Shown here piece after piece: positions 30,038 to 50,001 of a DNA stretch of 64,000 nucleotides. A program made the position numbers and the translations under genes. Each line of letters starts with the position of its first letter. Position 1 is the first letter of the stretch. Below the pieces are notes generated by a model, which saw only the letters and a program-made list of their open reading frames with translations, ran no database searches and was not told where the DNA came from. The DNA comes from Bacteroidaceae bacterium (GTDB lineage: Bacteria; Bacteroidota; Bacteroidia; Bacteroidales; Bacteroidaceae): assembly GCA_017465905.1 (NCBI GenBank), contig JAFTVE010000005.1:1-64000 (forward strand), read 5' to 3'.

Positions 30038-33000
30038 ATGTCGATATGGAGTAGACTATTAGGAATTAAGGATGCTGCAGACCTGAATAGATTTATAGGC
30101 CGAGAACAAGCATCCACCATGTATGATGCATCGCATTATGCAATAGTGGATGTGGAGATAAGTTTGAGGGATAATAAAATCCATGACATTGGTTCTATTC
30201 GCTATGATAGATCTACATTCCACAGTGGTTCTAAAGAGCAACTTCTCAAATTTCTGGGCAGCTTAGATTTTATATGTGGTCACAATATAATCCATCATGA
30301 TGCAAAATATCTTTTTGGAGATAAAAAGATACGTTGGATTCTCGTCGACACGCTATATATGTCGCCTTTATTGTTCCCCGAACGTCCATACCACAAACTT
30401 GTAAAGGACGACAAGCTGATGAGCGAACAGATGAATAATCCTGTGAATGACTGTAGCAAAACACAAGATTTATTGTTCGATGAAATAACACGTTGGAAGT
30501 CTCTGTCGGAGGACAAACGCAAATTGTTTGCCTCACTATTGATAGGTAAGGAGGAATTTAGAGGGTTTCTACTTATGGTAGGGGCTGAGAGCATACCAGC
30601 CAGTGAGTTACCAGAACTAATTAGGAGCGTTTACGGAGGTAGAATATGTCATCATGCAGACATTGATTCATTGGTCAAGCAATATCCTTGCGAGTTGGCT
30701 TACGCTTTAGCATTAATTGACACTACGGACTATCGTTCCATCACGCCCAGTTGGGTATTGCGCAATTATCCTCAGGTGGAGTATGTGGTAAAACTATTAC
30801 GCGAAACTCATTGTAGTATCGGGTGTGACTATTGTAATTCTCAGTTAGATGTACACCAGAGTTTGAAAACTTTCTTTGGTTATGACCAATTCCGTACATA
30901 TGAGAATGAACCTCTTCAAGAGAAGGCTGCCAAAGCTGCTGTTGATGGCAAATCACTCTTGGCTATATTCCCGACTGGTGGAGGTAAGTCGCTGACATTC
31001 CAACTTCCTGCACTGATGGCTGGTCGCTCTGTTCATGGACTCACTGTCGTGATATCTCCTTTACAATCCTTAATGAAAGACCAAGTTGATAACTTGGCGG
31101 AAAGAGGAATCACAGATGCGGTCACAATCAACGGTTTGCTGGATCCTATCACTAGAGCTCTGTCTATCCAGAGAGTACAGGATGGTGAAGCTTCATTATT
31201 GTATATAGCACCCGAGATGCTTCGTTCCAAAACGATTGAGAAGGTGCTAATGTCGCGTCATGTAGTAAGATTTGTGATAGATGAAGCGCATTGTTTTTCT
31301 TCTTGGGGTCAGGATTTCAGAGTCGACTACCTCTATATAGGGAAGTTTATCCGTGAATATCAGCGAAAGAAAGGATGCAAGAGTCCTATTCCTGTATCTT
31401 GTTTCACGGCTACGGCAAAGCAGAAAGTTGTGCAAGACATCTGCGACTATTTCAAACATGAACTGGATTTAGATTTACAATTGTTTGCATCGAAAGCTGC
31501 ACGTACCAATCTCCGCTACTCTGTCATACATACAGATACGGATGAGGATAAATATATAAAGTTAAGACAACTTGTAGCAGAATTTGATTGTCCGACAATT
31601 ATATATGTGTCACGAACCAAGCGAACTAAAGAGTTGTCGGCCAAACTGACCCGCGATGGCTTCAAGGCATTGCCCTTCAATGGTAAGATGGAAGCCGAAG
31701 AGAAGATTGCCAATCAAGACGACTTCATGAACGACAAGGTTCGTATCATTGTTGCCACATCGGCCTTCGGAATGGGTGTTGACAAAAAGGATGTTGGGTT
31801 GGTCATACATTATGACATATCCGACTCTTTGGAGAATTATGTGCAAGAAGCGGGAAGGGCTGGTCGTGACCCACATCTCAATGCGCGTTGCTATGTACTT
31901 TATAAAGACACAGACCTTGACAAGCATTTCATATTATTGAATCAGACCAAACTGAGCATAAGTGAAATTCAGCAGATTTGGAAAGCGATTAAGAGTCTTA
32001 CTAAACAGCGCCCAAGGATTTGTTGTTCGGCACTCGAAATAGCAAGACATGCAGGATGGGACGATTCGGTCTCTGACATAGAAACTCGTGTCCGTACAGC
32101 CTTGTCGGCTTTAGAGCAAGGTGGTTATCTTGAGCGAGGGAACAATGTTCCTCATGTATATGCTACCGGCATTACGGTCAAGAATATGGACGAGGCAAGA
32201 AAACGCATCACTGAGTCCGTTTTGTTTGAGAGCGATGAAATTGAAAAGGCTGTAAGAATTATCAAATCGTTGATTTCTCAGAAACAAATCAGTAAAGCAC
32301 AAGATGCTGATGCCGAATCCCGTGTAGACTATTTGGCCGACATATTGGGCCTGACCAAAGGTGAGGTTATATCCGCTGTTGAGAGAATGCGGCAAGAAGG
32401 AATTTTGGCCGATAGTAAAGATATTTCAGCATACCTTCAAGATGCAGGAGACTCGGAACGAAAGTCTTTAATGCTTCTTGAGCGTTTCGCAAAGCTGGAA
32501 CAATATATCTTAAGCCATATCCCAGATGGTGCATTAAAAATATCCAGCAAACAATTGAATGACAATGCCGTAAATGACGGAATAACGATGTCCAAGGAAA
32601 AAGACATTCGGACATTGCTTTACTTCCTCACCGTGAAGGGCTATACACGGAAGAAAGAGGACGGCAATCACAACATGGAGATTATTCGTCAGGCCGATAT
32701 GGAATCTACCATCAGCCGCTTCGAAAGGCGATTGGAGATATGTCGTTTTGCCGTAGATTGGTTATATAAATTGGTAGCAGAAAAGTCTTTTGAGTCTAAA
32801 CCGAACAATGCTGTTCAGTTTTCTGTCGTAGAACTACTGAATCAAATAAAATCCAGCCATAATTCTCTCTTTAGCAGTTTTGACACGCTACAATTGGAGG
32901 ACGTAGAGGAAGCGCTACTTTATTTGTCCAAAATCGGAGCGCTAAAACTTGAAGGAGGCTTTCTTGTCCTTTACAACGCAATGGATATCCGAAGATTGAA

Positions 33001-34942
33001 GGACAACAAGTCGAGATACAAGGTAGATGACTACCGTATGCTCAATGAATTCTATAAACAAAAGATTCAGCAAGTGCATATTGTTGGCGAATATGCCAAT
33101 CTGATGGTAAAGGATTATAACTCGGCGCTCCAATATGTACAGGACTACTTCCAAATGGATTATAAAAGATTCATTTCTAAATACTTTAAGGGGGACAGAA
33201 TTAATGAGATCCAACGTAATGTTACTCCCGGTAAATATGAACAACTATTCGGACAACTCTCAAAACGCCAAATGGAGATTGTCTCAGACAAGGAGTCGCG
33301 TTGCATTGTTGTAGCTGCAGGGCCGGGTAGCGGGAAGACACGCGTACTTGTACATAAGTTAGCTTCATTGCTACTGCTCGAAGATGTCAAGCACGAACAA
33401 CTCTTGATGTTGACTTTTTCAAGAGCAGCGGCTACGGAGTTTAAGCAACGTCTGATGGAACTGATTGGTAATGCTGCACATTTTGTTGAAATCAAGACAT
33501 TCCATTCTTATTGTTTCGACCTATTGGGACGTATCGGGAATCTTGAAGATTCAAAGAATGTAGTTGCAGAAGCAGCAGAGATGATTAGCCAAGGCGAGGT
33601 GGAACCGAATAGGATAGGGAAGACTGTGTTGGTTATTGATGAGGCTCAAGATATGAGTGCAGATGAGCATGCACTTGTAAGAGCCCTGATGAATAACAAT
33701 GAAGAGATGCGCGTGATAGCAGTAGGAGATGATGACCAGAATATCTATGAGTTCCGTGGTTCCAATTCATGGTACATGCTTCAATTAGCACAAGAACCGG
33801 GAGGGCGTTTTATCGAGATGACAGAAAACTACCGTAGTTCACGGCACGTAGTAGATTTTGCCAATAAGTTTGCCAAAAACATAGACCGAAGGATAAAAAG
33901 TACGCCAATCATATCTATGAGGGACAATGAAGGTTGGGTGGAAATCACTCACCATACATCAAAGGAAATGTATTGTCCCATTGTTAATAACTATCTTAAA
34001 AATAGTCGTAGCGGTAGAGCTTGTGTATTGACTCAAACAAACGAGGAAGCAGTAATCTTAGTAGCTTTAATGCGCAAGCAGGGAATAAACTCCAAACTGA
34101 TACAATCTATGGAAGGTTTCCGTCTGTACAATTTGGCAGAAATGAAATATTTCCTCAAACAAATCGAAAAGAAAATTGCTACACCTCTCATTACTGACGA
34201 ATTGTGGGAGGAGGCAAAGCAAGTGACCTATTCCAGCTATGCGACAAGTCAAAGTATACCTTATATAAAGCGTTGCGTTGAACTTTTTGAGCAAACAAAT
34301 AAAACGAAGTATTATAGTGATTTCAAGGAATTCGTTTTTGAATCATCCATTGAAGACTTCTGTGACACATCAGATGCCGATGTAGTTGTGTCTACCATAC
34401 ACAAAGCCAAAGGTCGGGAGTTCGATGATGTATATATGCTGTTATCAGACAATTATTCTAAAGATGACAATTTGATGCGGAGATACTATGTTGGAATGAC
34501 ACGTGCAAAGAACCGTTTGTTCATACATACAGACTCCCATCTTTTCGATAGAATGAAAGTTGACCAGCACATTGTTGATACTAAGGAATACGCCATGCCT
34601 GAGGAGATAGTATTGCAACTATCACATAAGGATGTGAACTTGGGATTCTTCAAGAACTTAAAACGAGAAATACTTTCACTCAGAGCTGGCGACTCTTTGA
34701 GTTATGACAATTTCATTTTGTCCAATAACTGTGCTAAACCTGTAGCCAAACTATCTCAGAATATGCAACAGAAGATGATGGAGTGGCAAGAAAGAGGGTA
34801 TATGGTTAAATCTGCATCTGTAAGGTTTATTGTTGCCTGGAAACCTAAAGATGCTCCCAAAGATGAACCAGAACATGCAGTATTGTTGGCTGATATGGTG
34901 CTATTCAAGGATTTTACTCAGAAAAATATAACGCAAACGTAA
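30038..34942 (+). CDS. Exonuclease-RecQ-UvrD fusion helicase
   Basis: 1634 residues with two complete helicase engines. Residues about 25-160 look like a DEDD (DnaQ-type) 3'-5' exonuclease: YAIVDVEIS, ICGHNIIHHDAKYL, then TQDLLFDEI. Residues about 290-800 are a RecQ helicase with FPTGGGKSLTFQLPALM (Lys 317), VIDEAHCFSSWGQDFRVDYLY (DEAH at 415-418) and YVQEAGRAGRDPHLNARCYVLY. Residues about 1080-1560 are a UvrD/PcrA-like helicase with VVAAGPGSGKTRVLVHKL (Lys 1100), VIDEAQDMSADE (Asp 1201), VGDDDQNIYEFRGSN, TENYRSS, STIHKAKGREFDDV and YYVGMTRAKNRLFIH. Such giant fusions occur sporadically in Bacteroidetes. With toxin and effector genes downstream, a role in defence or in handling foreign DNA is plausible but unproven. 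Single gene, A/T-richer than the glycan genes to its left. Confidence 0.9.
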   Translation: MSIWSRLLGIKDAADLNRFIGREQASTMYDASHYAIVDVEISLRDNKIHDIGSIRYDRSTFHSGSKEQLLKFLGSLDFICGHNIIHHDAKYLFGDKKIRWILVDTLYMSPLLFPERPYHKLVKDDKLMSEQMNNPVNDCSKTQDLLFDEITRWKSLSEDKRKLFASLLIGKEEFRGFLLMVGAESIPASELPELIRSVYGGRICHHADIDSLVKQYPCELAYALALIDTTDYRSITPSWVLRNYPQVEYVVKLLRETHCSIGCDYCNSQLDVHQSLKTFFGYDQFRTYENEPLQEKAAKAAVDGKSLLAIFPTGGGKSLTFQLPALMAGRSVHGLTVVISPLQSLMKDQVDNLAERGITDAVTINGLLDPITRALSIQRVQDGEASLLYIAPEMLRSKTIEKVLMSRHVVRFVIDEAHCFSSWGQDFRVDYLYIGKFIREYQRKKGCKSPIPVSCFTATAKQKVVQDICDYFKHELDLDLQLFASKAARTNLRYSVIHTDTDEDKYIKLRQLVAEFDCPTIIYVSRTKRTKELSAKLTRDGFKALPFNGKMEAEEKIANQDDFMNDKVRIIVATSAFGMGVDKKDVGLVIHYDISDSLENYVQEAGRAGRDPHLNARCYVLYKDTDLDKHFILLNQTKLSISEIQQIWKAIKSLTKQRPRICCSALEIARHAGWDDSVSDIETRVRTALSALEQGGYLERGNNVPHVYATGITVKNMDEARKRITESVLFESDEIEKAVRIIKSLISQKQISKAQDADAESRVDYLADILGLTKGEVISAVERMRQEGILADSKDISAYLQDAGDSERKSLMLLERFAKLEQYILSHIPDGALKISSKQLNDNAVNDGITMSKEKDIRTLLYFLTVKGYTRKKEDGNHNMEIIRQADMESTISRFERRLEICRFAVDWLYKLVAEKSFESKPNNAVQFSVVELLNQIKSSHNSLFSSFDTLQLEDVEEALLYLSKIGALKLEGGFLVLYNAMDIRRLKDNKSRYKVDDYRMLNEFYKQKIQQVHIVGEYANLMVKDYNSALQYVQDYFQMDYKRFISKYFKGDRINEIQRNVTPGKYEQLFGQLSKRQMEIVSDKESRCIVVAAGPGSGKTRVLVHKLASLLLLEDVKHEQLLMLTFSRAAATEFKQRLMELIGNAAHFVEIKTFHSYCFDLLGRIGNLEDSKNVVAEAAEMISQGEVEPNRIGKTVLVIDEAQDMSADEHALVRALMNNNEEMRVIAVGDDDQNIYEFRGSNSWYMLQLAQEPGGRFIEMTENYRSSRHVVDFANKFAKNIDRRIKSTPIISMRDNEGWVEITHHTSKEMYCPIVNNYLKNSRSGRACVLTQTNEEAVILVALMRKQGINSKLIQSMEGFRLYNLAEMKYFLKQIEKKIATPLITDELWEEAKQVTYSSYATSQSIPYIKRCVELFEQTNKTKYYSDFKEFVFESSIEDFCDTSDADVVVSTIHKAKGREFDDVYMLLSDNYSKDDNLMRRYYVGMTRAKNRLFIHTDSHLFDRMKVDQHIVDTKEYAMPEEIVLQLSHKDVNLGFFKNLKREILSLRAGDSLSYDNFILSNNCAKPVAKLSQNMQQKMMEWQERGYMVKSASVRFIVAWKPKDAPKDEPEHAVLLADMVLFKDFTQKNITQT

Positions 34943-34974
34943 TAAAGTGAAAATTGTGTAAAAGCACTTATTTC

Positions 34975-35120
34975 TAGAAGCTGTTGCTGCTAATTTTGCA
35001 ACATCTGCTACGGATGTAACAGCGTATCAGGTAGATTACTATAACCTTGGCGTGATTATCTCTGTTGGTTACAAAGTAAAATCAGTGCGAGGTATGCAAT
35101 TCTGTCACGGCGGAATCCGC
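34975..35120 (+). pseudogene. Fragment of a RhuM-family gene
   Basis: The plus-strand frame reads ATSATD..AYQVDYYNLGVIISVGYKVKSVRGMQF and is then lost. This matches the conserved core of RhuM proteins; the intact one at 40902-41870 reads FYTLDVIISVGYRVKSQRGVQF. Neither the N-terminus nor the rest of the gene is present. Confidence 0.7.
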
Positions 35121-35628
35121 CGTCCCTGAGTATCAAGGCTGTGACCCTGAAATAATATAGAGGATAGAACCCCCTACCTCAACACCCTCGGGTTACAAAC
35201 CCGAGGAGAAGGGAAGAACATTATTCATGGAAAATTCATGGTCAATTTACGGCAATTCATGTTCACAAAAGAGAAAGAATAGGGGAATCCTTGCAATCTT
35301 CTCGCGCAATCCCCAAGACGAGCAAAAAGAACGCAGCCACGGACGATTAGGAAAAAGCAAGAAGTAAGCGAAACGTGAGTTTTTGAGTTTAAAGATGGCA
35401 CCCAGTTGATATAAGGGTGTACAAGTTTGTGTATAAGTTATGTACAAGCTAATGATACTGTTTATAGTAGGTTAAACTATCAAGAATTTCTTTACAGTTC
35501 AATTGCGGATATATTTGATTCCTCAAAAATGTAGGACATGTCTCACTTTTTTAAACAAGAGCTACGACAAAAAAATAATCAGACGCGCAAATTCACACCC
35601 AACCTATCATAAAATAAAGAAAAAGTAT
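35121..35628. other. Intergenic region with dispersed repeat copy A
   Basis: No gene was found. 35261-35392 is copy A of a dispersed repeat. A small minus-strand frame across it (35247-35447) exists only because of the repeat and has a near copy at 41927-42229. Confidence 0.6.
35261..35392. repeat. Dispersed repeat, copy A
   Basis: Shares AATAGGGGAATCCTTGCAAT, AATCCCCAAG, AAGAACGCAGCCA, ATTAGGAAAA and GCAAGAAGT..GCGAAACG in the same order with copy B (40363-40688), and all but the first with copy C (42070-42274). Confidence 0.8.
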
Positions 35629-35636
35629 TATATTTG
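35629..35636 (+). promoter_or_regulatory. hipB operon promoter, -7 element
   Basis: TATATTTG matches TAnnTTTG, 24 bases before the hipB ATG. The flanking ATATTATATGATGTG is a possible autoregulatory operator (inference). Confidence 0.55.
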
Positions 35637-35660
35637 CATATTATATGATGTGTTACGGTT

Positions 35661-35981
35661 ATGGCAAAGAGTACAATGGGGACTAAATTGCCCCGAAAGT
35701 TGGAGCAGAAGATGCAGGTTGTTGGTGAGCAGATAAGGCTTGCCCGATTGCGTCGTAATTTGAGTGTTGCACAGGTTGCGGAGCGTGCCACTTGTTCGCC
35801 ACTTACGGTTTCGCGCATCGAGAAGGGTGTGCCGACGGTTGCGATTGGCATCTATCTGCGTGTGTTATATGCCCTGCAACTTGATGATGATATTCTCTCA
35901 TTAGCAAAAGATGACGAACTTGGTAGGGCGTTGCAAGATATGAATTTGCCACAGCGTGAAAGGGCATCTAAAAAACTCTAA
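35661..35981 (+). CDS. hipB: HipB-like helix-turn-helix antitoxin
   Basis: 106 residues. An XRE-type helix-turn-helix lies at about 20-75: GEQIRLARLRRNLSVAQVAERATCSPLTVSRIEKGVPTVAIGIYLRVLYAL. This is the HipB-like layout, with a longer N-terminal arm and a C-terminal tail (LAKDDELGRALQDMNLP). It should bind the operon promoter and restrain the HipA kinase encoded two genes on. First gene of a three-gene operon; the next ATG is 13 bases downstream of its stop. Confidence 0.85.
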   Translation: MAKSTMGTKLPRKLEQKMQVVGEQIRLARLRRNLSVAQVAERATCSPLTVSRIEKGVPTVAIGIYLRVLYALQLDDDILSLAKDDELGRALQDMNLPQRERASKKL

Positions 35982-35994
35982 GTCTATATATAAT

Positions 35995-36789
35995 ATGGAA
36001 CTCTCATTACGCAAAACTAAAAAACAGAATTTAAATTTTGTCATATCTTCCTACCCTTCAGAATTGGGAGAAGATGTAAATATTGCTTATAACTTTATTA
36101 AAGAGATGTTTTTTAGAGTATGTAAGCAGTCTTTGTTATTTAGCAGTAGCAAATATGATATTATCGAATACCCTTTTTTGTTTAGAGAGCGTCAGTTAGA
36201 CTCTGTTGTATTACCTGTTATATCATCTCTATGCAATGGGTTGGTAATAGCTGAATATCCTATCGTTAGAGATAGCTGCATAAAAGGTTTTGAAAAAGAT
36301 AATTCAAAAGGACGAATTGACTATTGGTGCGTATACAAGGACTATAGTTTGATTATTGAAATGAAACATAGTTATGACGCATTAAGAACGGACAAAACCA
36401 ATGATGAAAGGCTTATTAAAAGATGGGAAACGATGACTATAGGTCAACTTCAAGATGTCCGAAAAAATGTGAAATACTTTAGTGAAAATACAAAAGGGGT
36501 AATAAGAATAGGCCTTAATTTTATAACTCCATATTCTAGCCGTGATAACGATATGAATGATGTTACCTTTTTTGAGAGTAATCAAAAAGACATCTTAAAA
36601 AGGTTAGCAAGAGATGTTAGCCGTCATAAGCCCAAAACTACGACCCCAAATTTCTTGGCAAGTTGGGTTTTGCCAGATGAAAAAAAATACTTTGAAGTCT
36701 CTTATAAAGGCACCTATCCAGGCTTATTACTGCTGGGAAAGATTTATTCTCCCATTGCACACGAAGGATGTGTAAAAGTTAATGATTAG
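35995..36789 (+). CDS. PD-(D/E)XK nuclease-like protein between hipB and hipA
   Basis: 264 residues from ATG 35995. A GTG 39 bases upstream would overlap hipB and is less likely. I do not recognise the family by name. A nuclease-type signature is visible: KGRIDYWCVYKDYSLIIEMKHSYDAL, with Asp 109, Glu 122, Lys 124 (D-x12-E-x-K), a beta strand on each side and a conserved-looking IGQLQDVRKNV helix about 45 residues later. This fits the PD-(D/E)XK fold. There is no signal peptide or membrane segment. It sits between hipB and hipA with gaps of 13 and 2 bases, so it is almost certainly co-expressed with them. Strongly A/T-rich, unlike the flanking chromosome. It could instead be an inactive fold used as a binding partner. 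Confidence 0.7.
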   Translation: MELSLRKTKKQNLNFVISSYPSELGEDVNIAYNFIKEMFFRVCKQSLLFSSSKYDIIEYPFLFRERQLDSVVLPVISSLCNGLVIAEYPIVRDSCIKGFEKDNSKGRIDYWCVYKDYSLIIEMKHSYDALRTDKTNDERLIKRWETMTIGQLQDVRKNVKYFSENTKGVIRIGLNFITPYSSRDNDMNDVTFFESNQKDILKRLARDVSRHKPKTTTPNFLASWVLPDEKKYFEVSYKGTYPGLLLLGKIYSPIAHEGCVKVND

Positions 36790-36791
36790 CT

Positions 36792-38045
36792 ATGAAAAAG
36801 TTGTATGTATATGCCGATTTTGATTGGCTCAAGGAAACTGAGTTGGTGGGAGAACTTGGCTACGAATCACTTCGTGGCTCGGATAGTTATAGTTTTAAGT
36901 TTGCAGATAGTTGGATAAAGAAATACAATGCCATTACCCTTAGCGAAGACCTTAACAACTATCCTGGAATACAATACACTCAGCCGAATAAAGATATTTT
37001 TGGTTGCTTTGCCGATGCTCTTCCCGACAGATGGGGACGCACTCTTCTCCTCCGTCGTGAACAAATTTTGGCACAAGAGGATAACAGACCTATACGCCGT
37101 CTATCATCGTTTGACTTTTTGACGGGTATTGATGACTTTTCCCGTATGGGAGGATTCCGATTCAAAGAAACACTTGATGGCGAGTTCATAAACGCGGACA
37201 ACTCATTGCGTATTCCTCCATTGACCGACTTGCGCGAACTCATTGCAGCAAGCAAAGAGATTGAAAAAAGCGAGGATGCTAATACCCTCCCCGAGAAACG
37301 ATGGATTGCTCAACTTGTGCTACCGGGCTCTTCGCTCGGCGGTGCTCGCCCCAAAGCAAATGTTGTAGATACGGACCGCAGGATTTATGTCGCAAAGTTC
37401 CCATCATTGAAGGATGATTATGATGCAGGACTATGGGAACATTTCTGCCATATATTAGCCAAAAATGCGGGCATAAACGCAGCCGAAACAAAAGTACTTG
37501 AAATAAATGACAAGCATCATACGCTCCTTTCTCGTCGTTTTGATAGAACGGATGATGGCAAGAGAATACATTTTGCATCGGCAATGACCTTGCTTGGTTT
37601 GAACGACGGCGACAACGCTACAACAGGACACGGATATATTGACATTGTTGATTTTATCATTAGCGGTTGTACCGATGTTGATGTGAACTTGCGAGAACTA
37701 TTCCGCCGAGTTGCATTCAATATCTGCGTAGGCAACAGCGATGATCATTTCCGTAACCACGGTTTTCTGCTCACTGCAAAAGGCTGGACACTATCGCCTG
37801 CATACGATATGAACCCAACGCTGAATGACCATCAAAGTTTGCTCATTAACAGCAAGACCAACGAATCTGATTTGTCGATTTTGCTCAACTCGTGTGAGGA
37901 GTATATGCTCACACCAGAGGTTGCAAAGAGTATCATCTATGAGGTTGCAACTGCTGTCAAGGATTGGCGAGTGTTGGCAAACAGATTAGGCATCGCTAAG
38001 CGAGAAATGAGTTTGTTCGAAGATGTATTTGACAGAGAGATTTAA
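36792..38045 (+). CDS. hipA: HipA-like serine/threonine kinase toxin
   Basis: 417 residues, a normal HipA length. The N-terminal subdomain ends with the LTGIDDFSRMGGFRF segment typical of HipA. Near residue 175, LPGSSLGGARPKANV is the phosphate-binding loop region with the lysine. The catalytic core has FNICVGNSDDHFRNHGFLL (Asp 317/318, Asn 322) and the metal-binding SPAYDMNP (Asp 339). E. coli HipA phosphorylates a tRNA synthetase to halt growth; the target here is unknown. Last gene of hipB / nuclease-like / hipA, starting two bases after the middle gene's stop. Confidence 0.9.
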   Translation: MKKLYVYADFDWLKETELVGELGYESLRGSDSYSFKFADSWIKKYNAITLSEDLNNYPGIQYTQPNKDIFGCFADALPDRWGRTLLLRREQILAQEDNRPIRRLSSFDFLTGIDDFSRMGGFRFKETLDGEFINADNSLRIPPLTDLRELIAASKEIEKSEDANTLPEKRWIAQLVLPGSSLGGARPKANVVDTDRRIYVAKFPSLKDDYDAGLWEHFCHILAKNAGINAAETKVLEINDKHHTLLSRRFDRTDDGKRIHFASAMTLLGLNDGDNATTGHGYIDIVDFIISGCTDVDVNLRELFRRVAFNICVGNSDDHFRNHGFLLTAKGWTLSPAYDMNPTLNDHQSLLINSKTNESDLSILLNSCEEYMLTPEVAKSIIYEVATAVKDWRVLANRLGIAKREMSLFEDVFDREI

Positions 38046-38140
38046 GAATTAGAGGAAATGTGATAATTATATATTTATTTTGACATTAAATAATTTGAAA
38101 CAATAACAGATAAAAAATAACAAAAATGTGAAATAATAAT

Positions 38141-39421
38141 ATGAAAGAACTTATTTTAGAATTATCAAACTATTTAGAGTCTGGATATGCAGTAATTACG
38201 ATTGTTGCATCAATTGCCATTTTTATATATCAGAGCATTAAATTAAAAAATGAACGATTTAAACAATACGCAATAGACTTATACAAAGAAAATAACACTA
38301 CGGCACAAATCACGTCTGCCATATTATTAAGAACATACCTAAAGCCGATATTTCATATATTTAAGAACCCATATGAAAAAGATACTATTAATTTAATAGT
38401 TGCTATTTTAAGACATATACCAAATGGGCCATTACAAAAGACATTGGCAGATAGCATTTCATATGTAAGGAAGGCTGATGGACAAGATTTTCAATATATA
38501 AACCTTAGTTCGGCATCTATAAAGCCTAAATATAGAATAGACTTTGAGATATATAATAATACAAATTATTTGAATAAGCGTATTTCTATGCGTTGTGCTG
38601 ACTTTTATTGTTCAGATATTACATCAAGCGGAGTGTACCATATAAATGCAGAAAAATCAGTATTCTATAATTGTCTATTATGTAAAAGTTCATTTTATAA
38701 CTGTATTTTGGAAGGTGCTGATTTTAGAAATGCGGATATACACAATTTGAAATTTGTTGATTGTATTTTGACTGATGCAAAATTCGATGGAGCTATTGGA
38801 TTAGATTCTGCAATGGTCGTTAGTACGGCTACGAATGAAAAATATGCATTAATAAATTATCTCAATGAAGATGGTTTATTTGATAACTATTGTAAAGCCA
38901 TTCGCTATCAGTGCAATGACACTCCAAAAAAAATTTTTGTAAGCAGACTTGGAGAAATGAATACCAAGCAAAAGCTATATTTTAATTATATACTTGACTA
39001 TCTTGAACAAAAGTATAATTACAAGTATGAGCAAATTCAGCCTCAAGAGTATCGTGAGTCTGAACAGATTTCAATGATAAAAAATAGAATGGCACAGTGT
39101 TCTGGTATAATAGTTTTTGCATTTTCTCAAATACATATTGACAGTGGAGAAATTGTAAACAAGACTCAGCAAATATGCAATGAAGAGTATTCATCTCCAT
39201 GGTTGCACATTGAAACGGCGATGGCAAAGGCATTATATGATTTCCCTGTGATGATTATAACCGAAGAGAATATATCATGTAACGGAATTTTTGATAATAA
39301 GATTATAAGCAATGACAACTTAATGTTTAAAATAAACTATAGAGGGGTGCTTTCAGATAAGGACGAGAGTATAATTTCACATTGGAATAGAGCTGTAGAA
39401 CAGCATAAAACAAATGCTTAG
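38141..39421 (+). CDS. Membrane-anchored pentapeptide protein with TIR/NDT-like C-terminal domain
   Basis: 426 residues in three parts. One membrane helix lies near the N-terminus (about 16-34, YAVITIVASIAIFIYQS). A helical region (about 50-110) is followed at about 150-215 by pentapeptide-type repeats (FYNCLLCKSSFYNCILEGADFRNADIHNLKF). Residues about 265-420 look like a Rossmann-type TIR or deoxyribosyltransferase-like domain: KKIFVSRLGEMNTKQKLYFNYILDYLEQ, CSGIIVFAFSQ, SPWLHIETAMAKALYDFPVMIITEE (Glu 358 at the usual catalytic position) and GIFDNKI. Such domains often cleave NAD or nucleotides in anti-phage systems. The enzyme activity is inference. Very A/T-rich; 95 bases after hipA and 138 bases before an orphan RNA unit. 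Confidence 0.7.
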   Translation: MKELILELSNYLESGYAVITIVASIAIFIYQSIKLKNERFKQYAIDLYKENNTTAQITSAILLRTYLKPIFHIFKNPYEKDTINLIVAILRHIPNGPLQKTLADSISYVRKADGQDFQYINLSSASIKPKYRIDFEIYNNTNYLNKRISMRCADFYCSDITSSGVYHINAEKSVFYNCLLCKSSFYNCILEGADFRNADIHNLKFVDCILTDAKFDGAIGLDSAMVVSTATNEKYALINYLNEDGLFDNYCKAIRYQCNDTPKKIFVSRLGEMNTKQKLYFNYILDYLEQKYNYKYEQIQPQEYRESEQISMIKNRMAQCSGIIVFAFSQIHIDSGEIVNKTQQICNEEYSSPWLHIETAMAKALYDFPVMIITEENISCNGIFDNKIISNDNLMFKINYRGVLSDKDESIISHWNRAVEQHKTNA

Positions 39422-49600: not shown

Positions 49601-49604
49601 CATG

Positions 49605-50001
49605 TGGAGCTGGAGGGAATCGAACCCTCGTCCAAACGAGGAAACCGTATGCTTTCTACATGCTTATCTTTGCCTTCGATTTTCGTGCGCAAGCAAGACC
49701 AAAGCCACCAACTTACGCCTTATCCTCTAAATCTTCACCATCGATGCGAGGCCATCAACAGCTATTTCCGATTTTACTGCACCACCATATCGACGAGCTT
49801 CGGAAAAACAGCGTTCGGGTGATGTCTCGTTTCAGCACCTTGTGCCGAAATGAAGCTTATCTACTGTACTTCGATTAAGCAGCGAGAGCGTAATTATTTT
49901 CGCCAATTAATTCTTTGCAAGATTGATATTTAAGTGCTAACCAAGCAACGCACTGCATGCTTACATACCATCTCGGCCCGCTGTCAAATCCAGTCAACCC
50001 C
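49605..50001 (-). ncRNA. ssrA: Transfer-messenger RNA (tmRNA)
   Basis: Rescues stalled ribosomes and tags the nascent protein. About 397 bases. The 5' end GGGGTTGACTGGATTTGACAG (in part, 49981-50001) and the 3' end with GGTTCGATTCC and CCAGCTCCA form the tRNA-like part. The acceptor arm pairs GGGGTTG-type bases with CAGCTCC. CCA is not fully encoded (ACA follows). The tag frame at 49875-49904 starts at a GGC codon: GENNYALAA, stop; with the charged alanine the tag is AGENNYALAA. The promoter TACCTTTG is at 50016-50023 on the minus strand. Confidence 0.95.

Follow-up and report, generated by a model that had tools for sequence, protein, structure and literature searches.

The gene that separates hipB from hipA in this Bacteroidaceae genome, here called mid, is best explained, with a probability that we put at about 60%, as an autonomous, horizontally mobile gene of Bacteroidales for a PD-(D/E)XK nuclease-like protein, which would have entered a pre-existing hipBA operon, a common kind of toxin-antitoxin operon that acts through growth arrest, as a precise single-gene insert. 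It lies in a stretch of 64,000 nucleotides that was analysed as a whole (the window). Filled and empty forms of the operon both occur, mid moves independently of hipB and hipA, and the hip genes around it are intact. Because mid travels on its own, the toxin system probably does not have it as a fixed third component, and mid is more likely to be a passenger or a selfish gene.

The three open reading frames were confirmed, all on the forward strand, and form one tight operon. The first, hipB (35661-35981, +), encodes a 106-aa protein resembling HTH antitoxins and autoregulators (HTH_31, E=2.2e-9); mid (35995-36789, +) encodes a 264-aa PD-(D/E)XK-like protein; and hipA (36792-38045, +) encodes a 417-aa kinase. 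Spacing is 13 bases between hipB and mid and 2 bases between mid and hipA, exactly as reported in an earlier note on this DNA. HipA is full length, with both of its Pfam domains present (N-terminal Couple_hipA, E=8e-6; HipA_C, E=4.1e-47), and the outer genes thus have the hallmarks of a hipBA operon, namely an HTH-type hipB and a HipA_C kinase gene in a single operon. Purifying selection acts on hipB, mid and hipA alike, with dN/dS of 0.04-0.06 for hipA (five pairs). A DNA alignment of ten operons extends about 55 bp upstream of hipB. The likely promoter/operator region, predicted by eye at 35605..35650 (+), contains TATATTTG (35629-35636), which we take to be a Bacteroidota-type TAnnTTTG promoter element, and the inverted repeat CATATTATATG (35637-35647), both also read by eye.

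Judged from its sequence, the arrangement is hipBA plus an insert and not HipBST, in agreement with the earlier note. It resembles type II hipBA toxin-antitoxin systems in having an HTH hipB directly before a full-length HipA kinase and a retained promoter region, and differs from them in the foreign gene between the two. With HipBST it shares three genes with the kinase last; in the HipBST systems covered in parts of one review, however, HipS corresponds to the missing N-terminus of the kinase, whereas here that N-terminus is present and the middle protein is nuclease-like (PMC8262856). Section 5 of the same review sets out ten genetic organisations of Hip systems, and hipB-mid-hipA is not among them; searching the main text for terms turned up no word beginning with "nuclease" (PMC8262856). 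The middle position of mid, which is that of hipS in hipBST, could suggest that mid controls the kinase in the same way. We consider such a role highly improbable and rejected a HipS-like middle protein as a candidate: HipA keeps its own Couple_hipA domain, and the mid profile shows no similarity to the HipA profile (probability 0.3), matching PDDEXK_9 instead.

The nuclease-like character of mid, which the earlier note had read from three residues, is borne out by comparison with its relatives. D109 (36319-36321), E122 (36358-36360), K124 (36364-36366) and Q151 (36445-36447) are invariant in all 26 aligned relatives, and a further one (L075) agrees by eye; E65, R92 and W144 are among the other invariant positions of the 26-row alignment. 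The sole Pfam match of mid is to PDDEXK_9 (PF08011; residues 100-177, E=3.2e-4), at 21.1 bits against a gathering cut-off of 25.5 bits, and PADLOC gave no match for mid. In a profile-profile alignment (hhalign), mid and PDDEXK_9 were matched with a probability of 90.6, an E-value of 1.3e-6 (for a single pair) and a score of 43.6, the PDDEXK_9 profile having been built from 20 domains of related genomes and the family having been picked owing to the earlier weak Pfam match. The best score among 60 column-shuffled controls was 21.1. D109, E122, K124 and Q151 all fall in register with the PDDEXK_9 residues. Taken singly, only four of the 26 members match PDDEXK_9 with E<=0.01, and one member hits an unrelated family; relatives of solved structure were found by sequence neither with the single protein nor with the 26-row profile.

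PDDEXK_9 occurs at the C-terminal end of AAA-ATPase-like proteins. The GRxD, ExK and Q of mid align with that family, but mid is sub-threshold in Pfam, has conserved N- and C-terminal parts of its own and carries no ATPase. Selection provides a further line of evidence: dN/dS is 0.03-0.21 in 12 of 14 gene pairs, and mid is for this reason more than a chance open frame. The two remaining pairs are L012/L013, with one synonymous and no amino-acid change, and L017/L019, whose dN/dS of 0.72 comes from only four differences. Membership of mid in the PD-(D/E)XK superfamily is thus likely, and we infer nuclease activity from it.

Relatives of mid were detected in six of 301 genomes of the family and in at least three of 393 genomes of the order (26-row profile), the window being included in both counts, as well as at 27 loci from a genome collection and two from a viral collection. 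With each contig counted once (G252, for example, is the same as L013, and G303 the same as L019), these yield 31 mid loci: the window, L012-L040 and L075. The 26-row profile also matched at least one of 395 genomes of the phylum, the window's own included. Collections of plasmid and phage records held no mid match at E<=1e-5; hipB matched 12 plasmid records at E<=1e-15, but none of the phage records matched it at E<=1e-10, nor was any viral contig confirmed. At two loci (L037 and L038), stops or a change of frame interrupt mid, and the copy in L037 stands after a pair judged by eye to be HigB/HigA-like. Genes beside mid in L030 and L035 were labelled by eye as phage lysozyme/holin-like, and those in L040 as microvirus replication and capsid-like, identities that we assume here.

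How closely is mid tied to the hip genes? The order hipB-mid-hipA occurs at four of the 31 loci (the window, L012, L013 and L014), and at three more hipB adjoins mid with no hipA following: L018; L019, where only 353 bases of sequence lie after mid; and L075, where mid is divergent from hipB and an ATPase-like gene of 493 aa, identified by eye, comes after hipB. No hip gene is present in the fetched DNA of the other 24 loci, an absence that is not firm at L015, L022, L027 and L032, each with fewer than 450 bases upstream of mid. Approached from the operon, the 301 family genomes contain 51 hipB-hipA pairs, these being the hipB matches (68 in total, some rows of them fragments) that have a listed adjacent hipA. 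The two genes are at most 88 bp apart in 49 pairs; the gaps of the other two (813 bp) hold mid, and no gene except mid was found in the gap in any of the 51. Mid is also missing from 28 of 30 fetched hipA loci. No adjacent hipA is listed for 17 of the 68 hipB matches, and among the 14 of these that were fetched, 13 showed no hipA (one of them stops at a contig end) and one a 36-residue remnant. Lone hipB genes in L116 and L117 are followed, some 120 bp on, by near-alike ATPase-like genes of 457-458 aa, a second recurrent partner.

These counts bear directly on the suggestion of the earlier note that a repressor, a nuclease and a kinase toxin form one dedicated module, cooperating in defence or growth arrest. 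In its favour are the single operon with its short gaps, the purifying selection on all three genes, and the adjacency of hipB and mid at seven of 31 loci and in four of eight sampled genomes. The note had asked whether homologues keep both the catalytic residues and the hip neighbours: D, E and K are indeed retained in all 26 aligned relatives, but both neighbours are present only at the four loci named above, and most homologues show no hip gene in the fetched DNA, the outcome that the note itself had named as refuting its idea. Moreover, L018, L019 and L075 have hipB beside mid and no hipA following. As the linkage fails in both directions (4/31 mid loci; 2/51 pairs), a composite hip-nuclease module was rejected as the leading reading, and we regard it as unlikely.

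Nonetheless, a non-random link between mid and hipB remains. The 301 family and 393 order genomes together include eight with mid, and hipB stands beside it in four (G000, G252, G303 and G589); G064, G113 and G189 have no adjacent hipB, and the locus in G155 is truncated where its contig ends. Since hipB relatives occur in only 65 of the 301 family genomes (E<=1e-20), this adjacency exceeds that of chance gene order, the lineages concerned being few. Adjacency above chance, in three different arrangements, is not expected of a purely accidental passenger.

The mobility of mid is most evident when filled and empty operons are compared. A same-genus operon (L042) whose hipA is 97.6% identical contains no mid. 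In the ten-operon alignment, the insertion point is identical in all four filled operons, past the A-run near the end of hipB and immediately 5' of CTATGAA at the start of hipA. GC content sets mid apart (33%) from hipB (48%), hipA (44%) and the window (49.5%). Sequence beyond the operon and the promoter region varies from locus to locus, which gives hipBA itself the look of a compact mobile unit; as an exception, L012 stays similar to the window over roughly another 120 bp upstream (73-82%). At the DNA level, the window mid is 98% identical to the copies in L012, a Paludibacteraceae MAG from roe deer, and L013, a Bacteroidales MAG, compared with 86-90% for hipB and 74-86% for hipA. L012 and L013 differ from each other by a single synonymous change in mid (dS 0.006), against dS values of 0.73 for hipB and 1.49 for hipA. 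Their near-identical tract, with one difference in 820 bp, spans 35967..36786 in window coordinates (+), with the nearest flanking differences at positions 35966 and 36787; its edges thus lie 28 bp upstream of the mid start and at the mid stop codon.

Phylogenetic analysis of hipA gave a concordant picture. On a tree of 31 rows, filled operons are scattered among empty ones, with four label changes, at least three of which are forced by well-supported branches, and they are not more clustered than shuffled labels (mean of 3.9 changes). For groups named after inspection of the tree, a single clade of the four mid-bearing hipA genes was rejected (p-AU 0.0023), as was a clade of the window, L012 and L013 (p-AU 0.0006), and the pair of L012 and L013 was borderline and not rejected at 0.05 (p-AU 0.0506). 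Such discordance between the histories of mid and the hip genes also counts against a cooperating module. Occupied and empty alleles of one site therefore exist, and mid has been transferred independently of the history of its flanks.

This pattern invites comparison with homing, in which mid, as a selfish free-standing PD-(D/E)XK nuclease, would cut the conserved hipB-hipA junction of mid-less alleles and be copied in by repair, hipBA serving as an addictive, self-repressing home and mid spreading between divergent alleles without their flanks. A lone nuclease-like gene between two conserved genes, its presence or absence at one site, and its passage between divergent alleles as a tract that stops at the borders of the gene all fit such a process, and the free-standing homing endonucleases of T-even phages likewise are lone nuclease genes at fixed intergenic places with polymorphic presence, in the portion of the T4 literature drawn on here (PMC2988022). 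The same portion describes phage enzymes of other nuclease folds (GIY-YIG or HNH in T4) that co-convert their flanks and usually cut far from their own gene (PMC2988022), whereas mid sits on a bacterial chromosome and no co-conversion was seen: the first 60-180 bases of hipA are equally alike in mid-less and filled pairs. Relatives of mid below about 70% identity, moreover, occupy other places. We therefore hold homing to be fairly unlikely as the full account; it would be one possible answer to the exact movement of mid, and it overlaps with the explanation that we prefer. No recombinase or repeat able to move mid was identified.

Alternatively, hipBA may be a turnover hot spot where mid landed by chance, to the benefit of neither. 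The variable flanks and the 17 hipB matches with no listed hipA beside them agree with such neutral turnover. However, mid alone fills the gap in the 51 hipB-hipA pairs, the boundaries of the transferred tract are more precise than random landing would give, and mid is under purifying selection, making a neutral passenger distinctly unlikely.

The TAnnTTTG element, assumed here to be the promoter motif in mid upstream regions, is found at most 90 bp upstream in 10 of 28 mids, as compared with 1.3 on average and never more than 5 in 300 rounds of shuffling. The window, L012 and L014 have no such element within 90 bp upstream of mid; thus, inside hipBA, mid is presumably driven by the hipB promoter. 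Control by HipB was not supported as a common theme, for hipB and mid are about 255 bp apart in L018 and about 190 bp in L019, and the divergent mid of L075 has a promoter-like element of its own. Mid is often expressed with no antitoxin, which makes potent general toxicity improbable.

The wider neighbourhoods of mid are varied. A Pfam scan of ten proteins encoded next to mid returned nothing for seven and revealed no general neighbour function. L021 and L023 encode a DUF3800 protein ahead of mid; a 131-aa protein with no Pfam family directly follows it in several relatives of about 43% identity (L021, L022, L023 and L027); L027 has a PDC-S57 fragment, a candidate defence gene, nearby; and L020 has an HTH_3 gene near mid. 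Upstream of the hip operon, the window encodes a 1634-aa protein (30038-34942) with RecQ-like and UvrD-like parts that gave PADLOC helicase matches. Relatives about 55% identical to it lie directly before mid in L024 (1274-5986) and L025 (1203-5903); a helicase-mid partnership was rejected, as the helicase was found at none of the remaining mid loci among L001-L070. Immediately downstream of the hip operon (38141-39421) is a gene of 30% GC for a 426-aa protein with a short pentapeptide-repeat part. From the helicase (41% GC) through mid to this gene, the window contains an island of low-GC genes (30038-39421), with glycoside hydrolase genes on one side (to 29018) and an arabinofuranosidase gene on the other (from 42417). 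Farther along is a tmRNA gene (49604-50001, -) with the tag GENNYALAA.

Nesting of an effector gene in another operon of genetic conflict has a known parallel in the PrrC anticodon nuclease, whose gene lies within a type I restriction locus and is silenced by that host locus. Mid shares the nesting with PrrC, whereas silencing by the host locus belongs to what is known of PrrC alone. The nearest published idea that we found is a remark on the Uma2/COG4636 proteins in the part drawn on of a 2009 survey, which regards these PD-(D/E)XK proteins as probable solo toxins that are seldom linked to antitoxins (PMC2701414). Like mid, they are mostly solo; unlike mid, they form a cyanobacterial family, and insertion into a hip operon is not described for them in that part (PMC2701414). 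Among the open-access papers that literature searches brought up, no title or beginning of an abstract described a nuclease gene between hipB and hipA.

On the preferred reading of mid as a mobile insert, its transcription inside hipBA would start at the hipB promoter, and its expression would thereby be kept low by HipB autorepression. The product would cut nucleic acid, with foreign or competing DNA as its most probable target, and would neither neutralise HipA nor activate it. For such a gene, hipBA may represent a stable, addictive and repressed home.

The locus provides a clean natural case in which one gene enters or leaves a toxin-antitoxin operon between its two genes, almost to the base, and the operon stays intact, and matched empty and filled alleles are available in close relatives. 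It also advises caution, in that composite systems should not be named from the gene order of one genome. Two questions can now be put to the test: by what means a single gene moves this precisely when no recombinase is in sight, and whether further selfish or defence genes are harboured in toxin-antitoxin operons.
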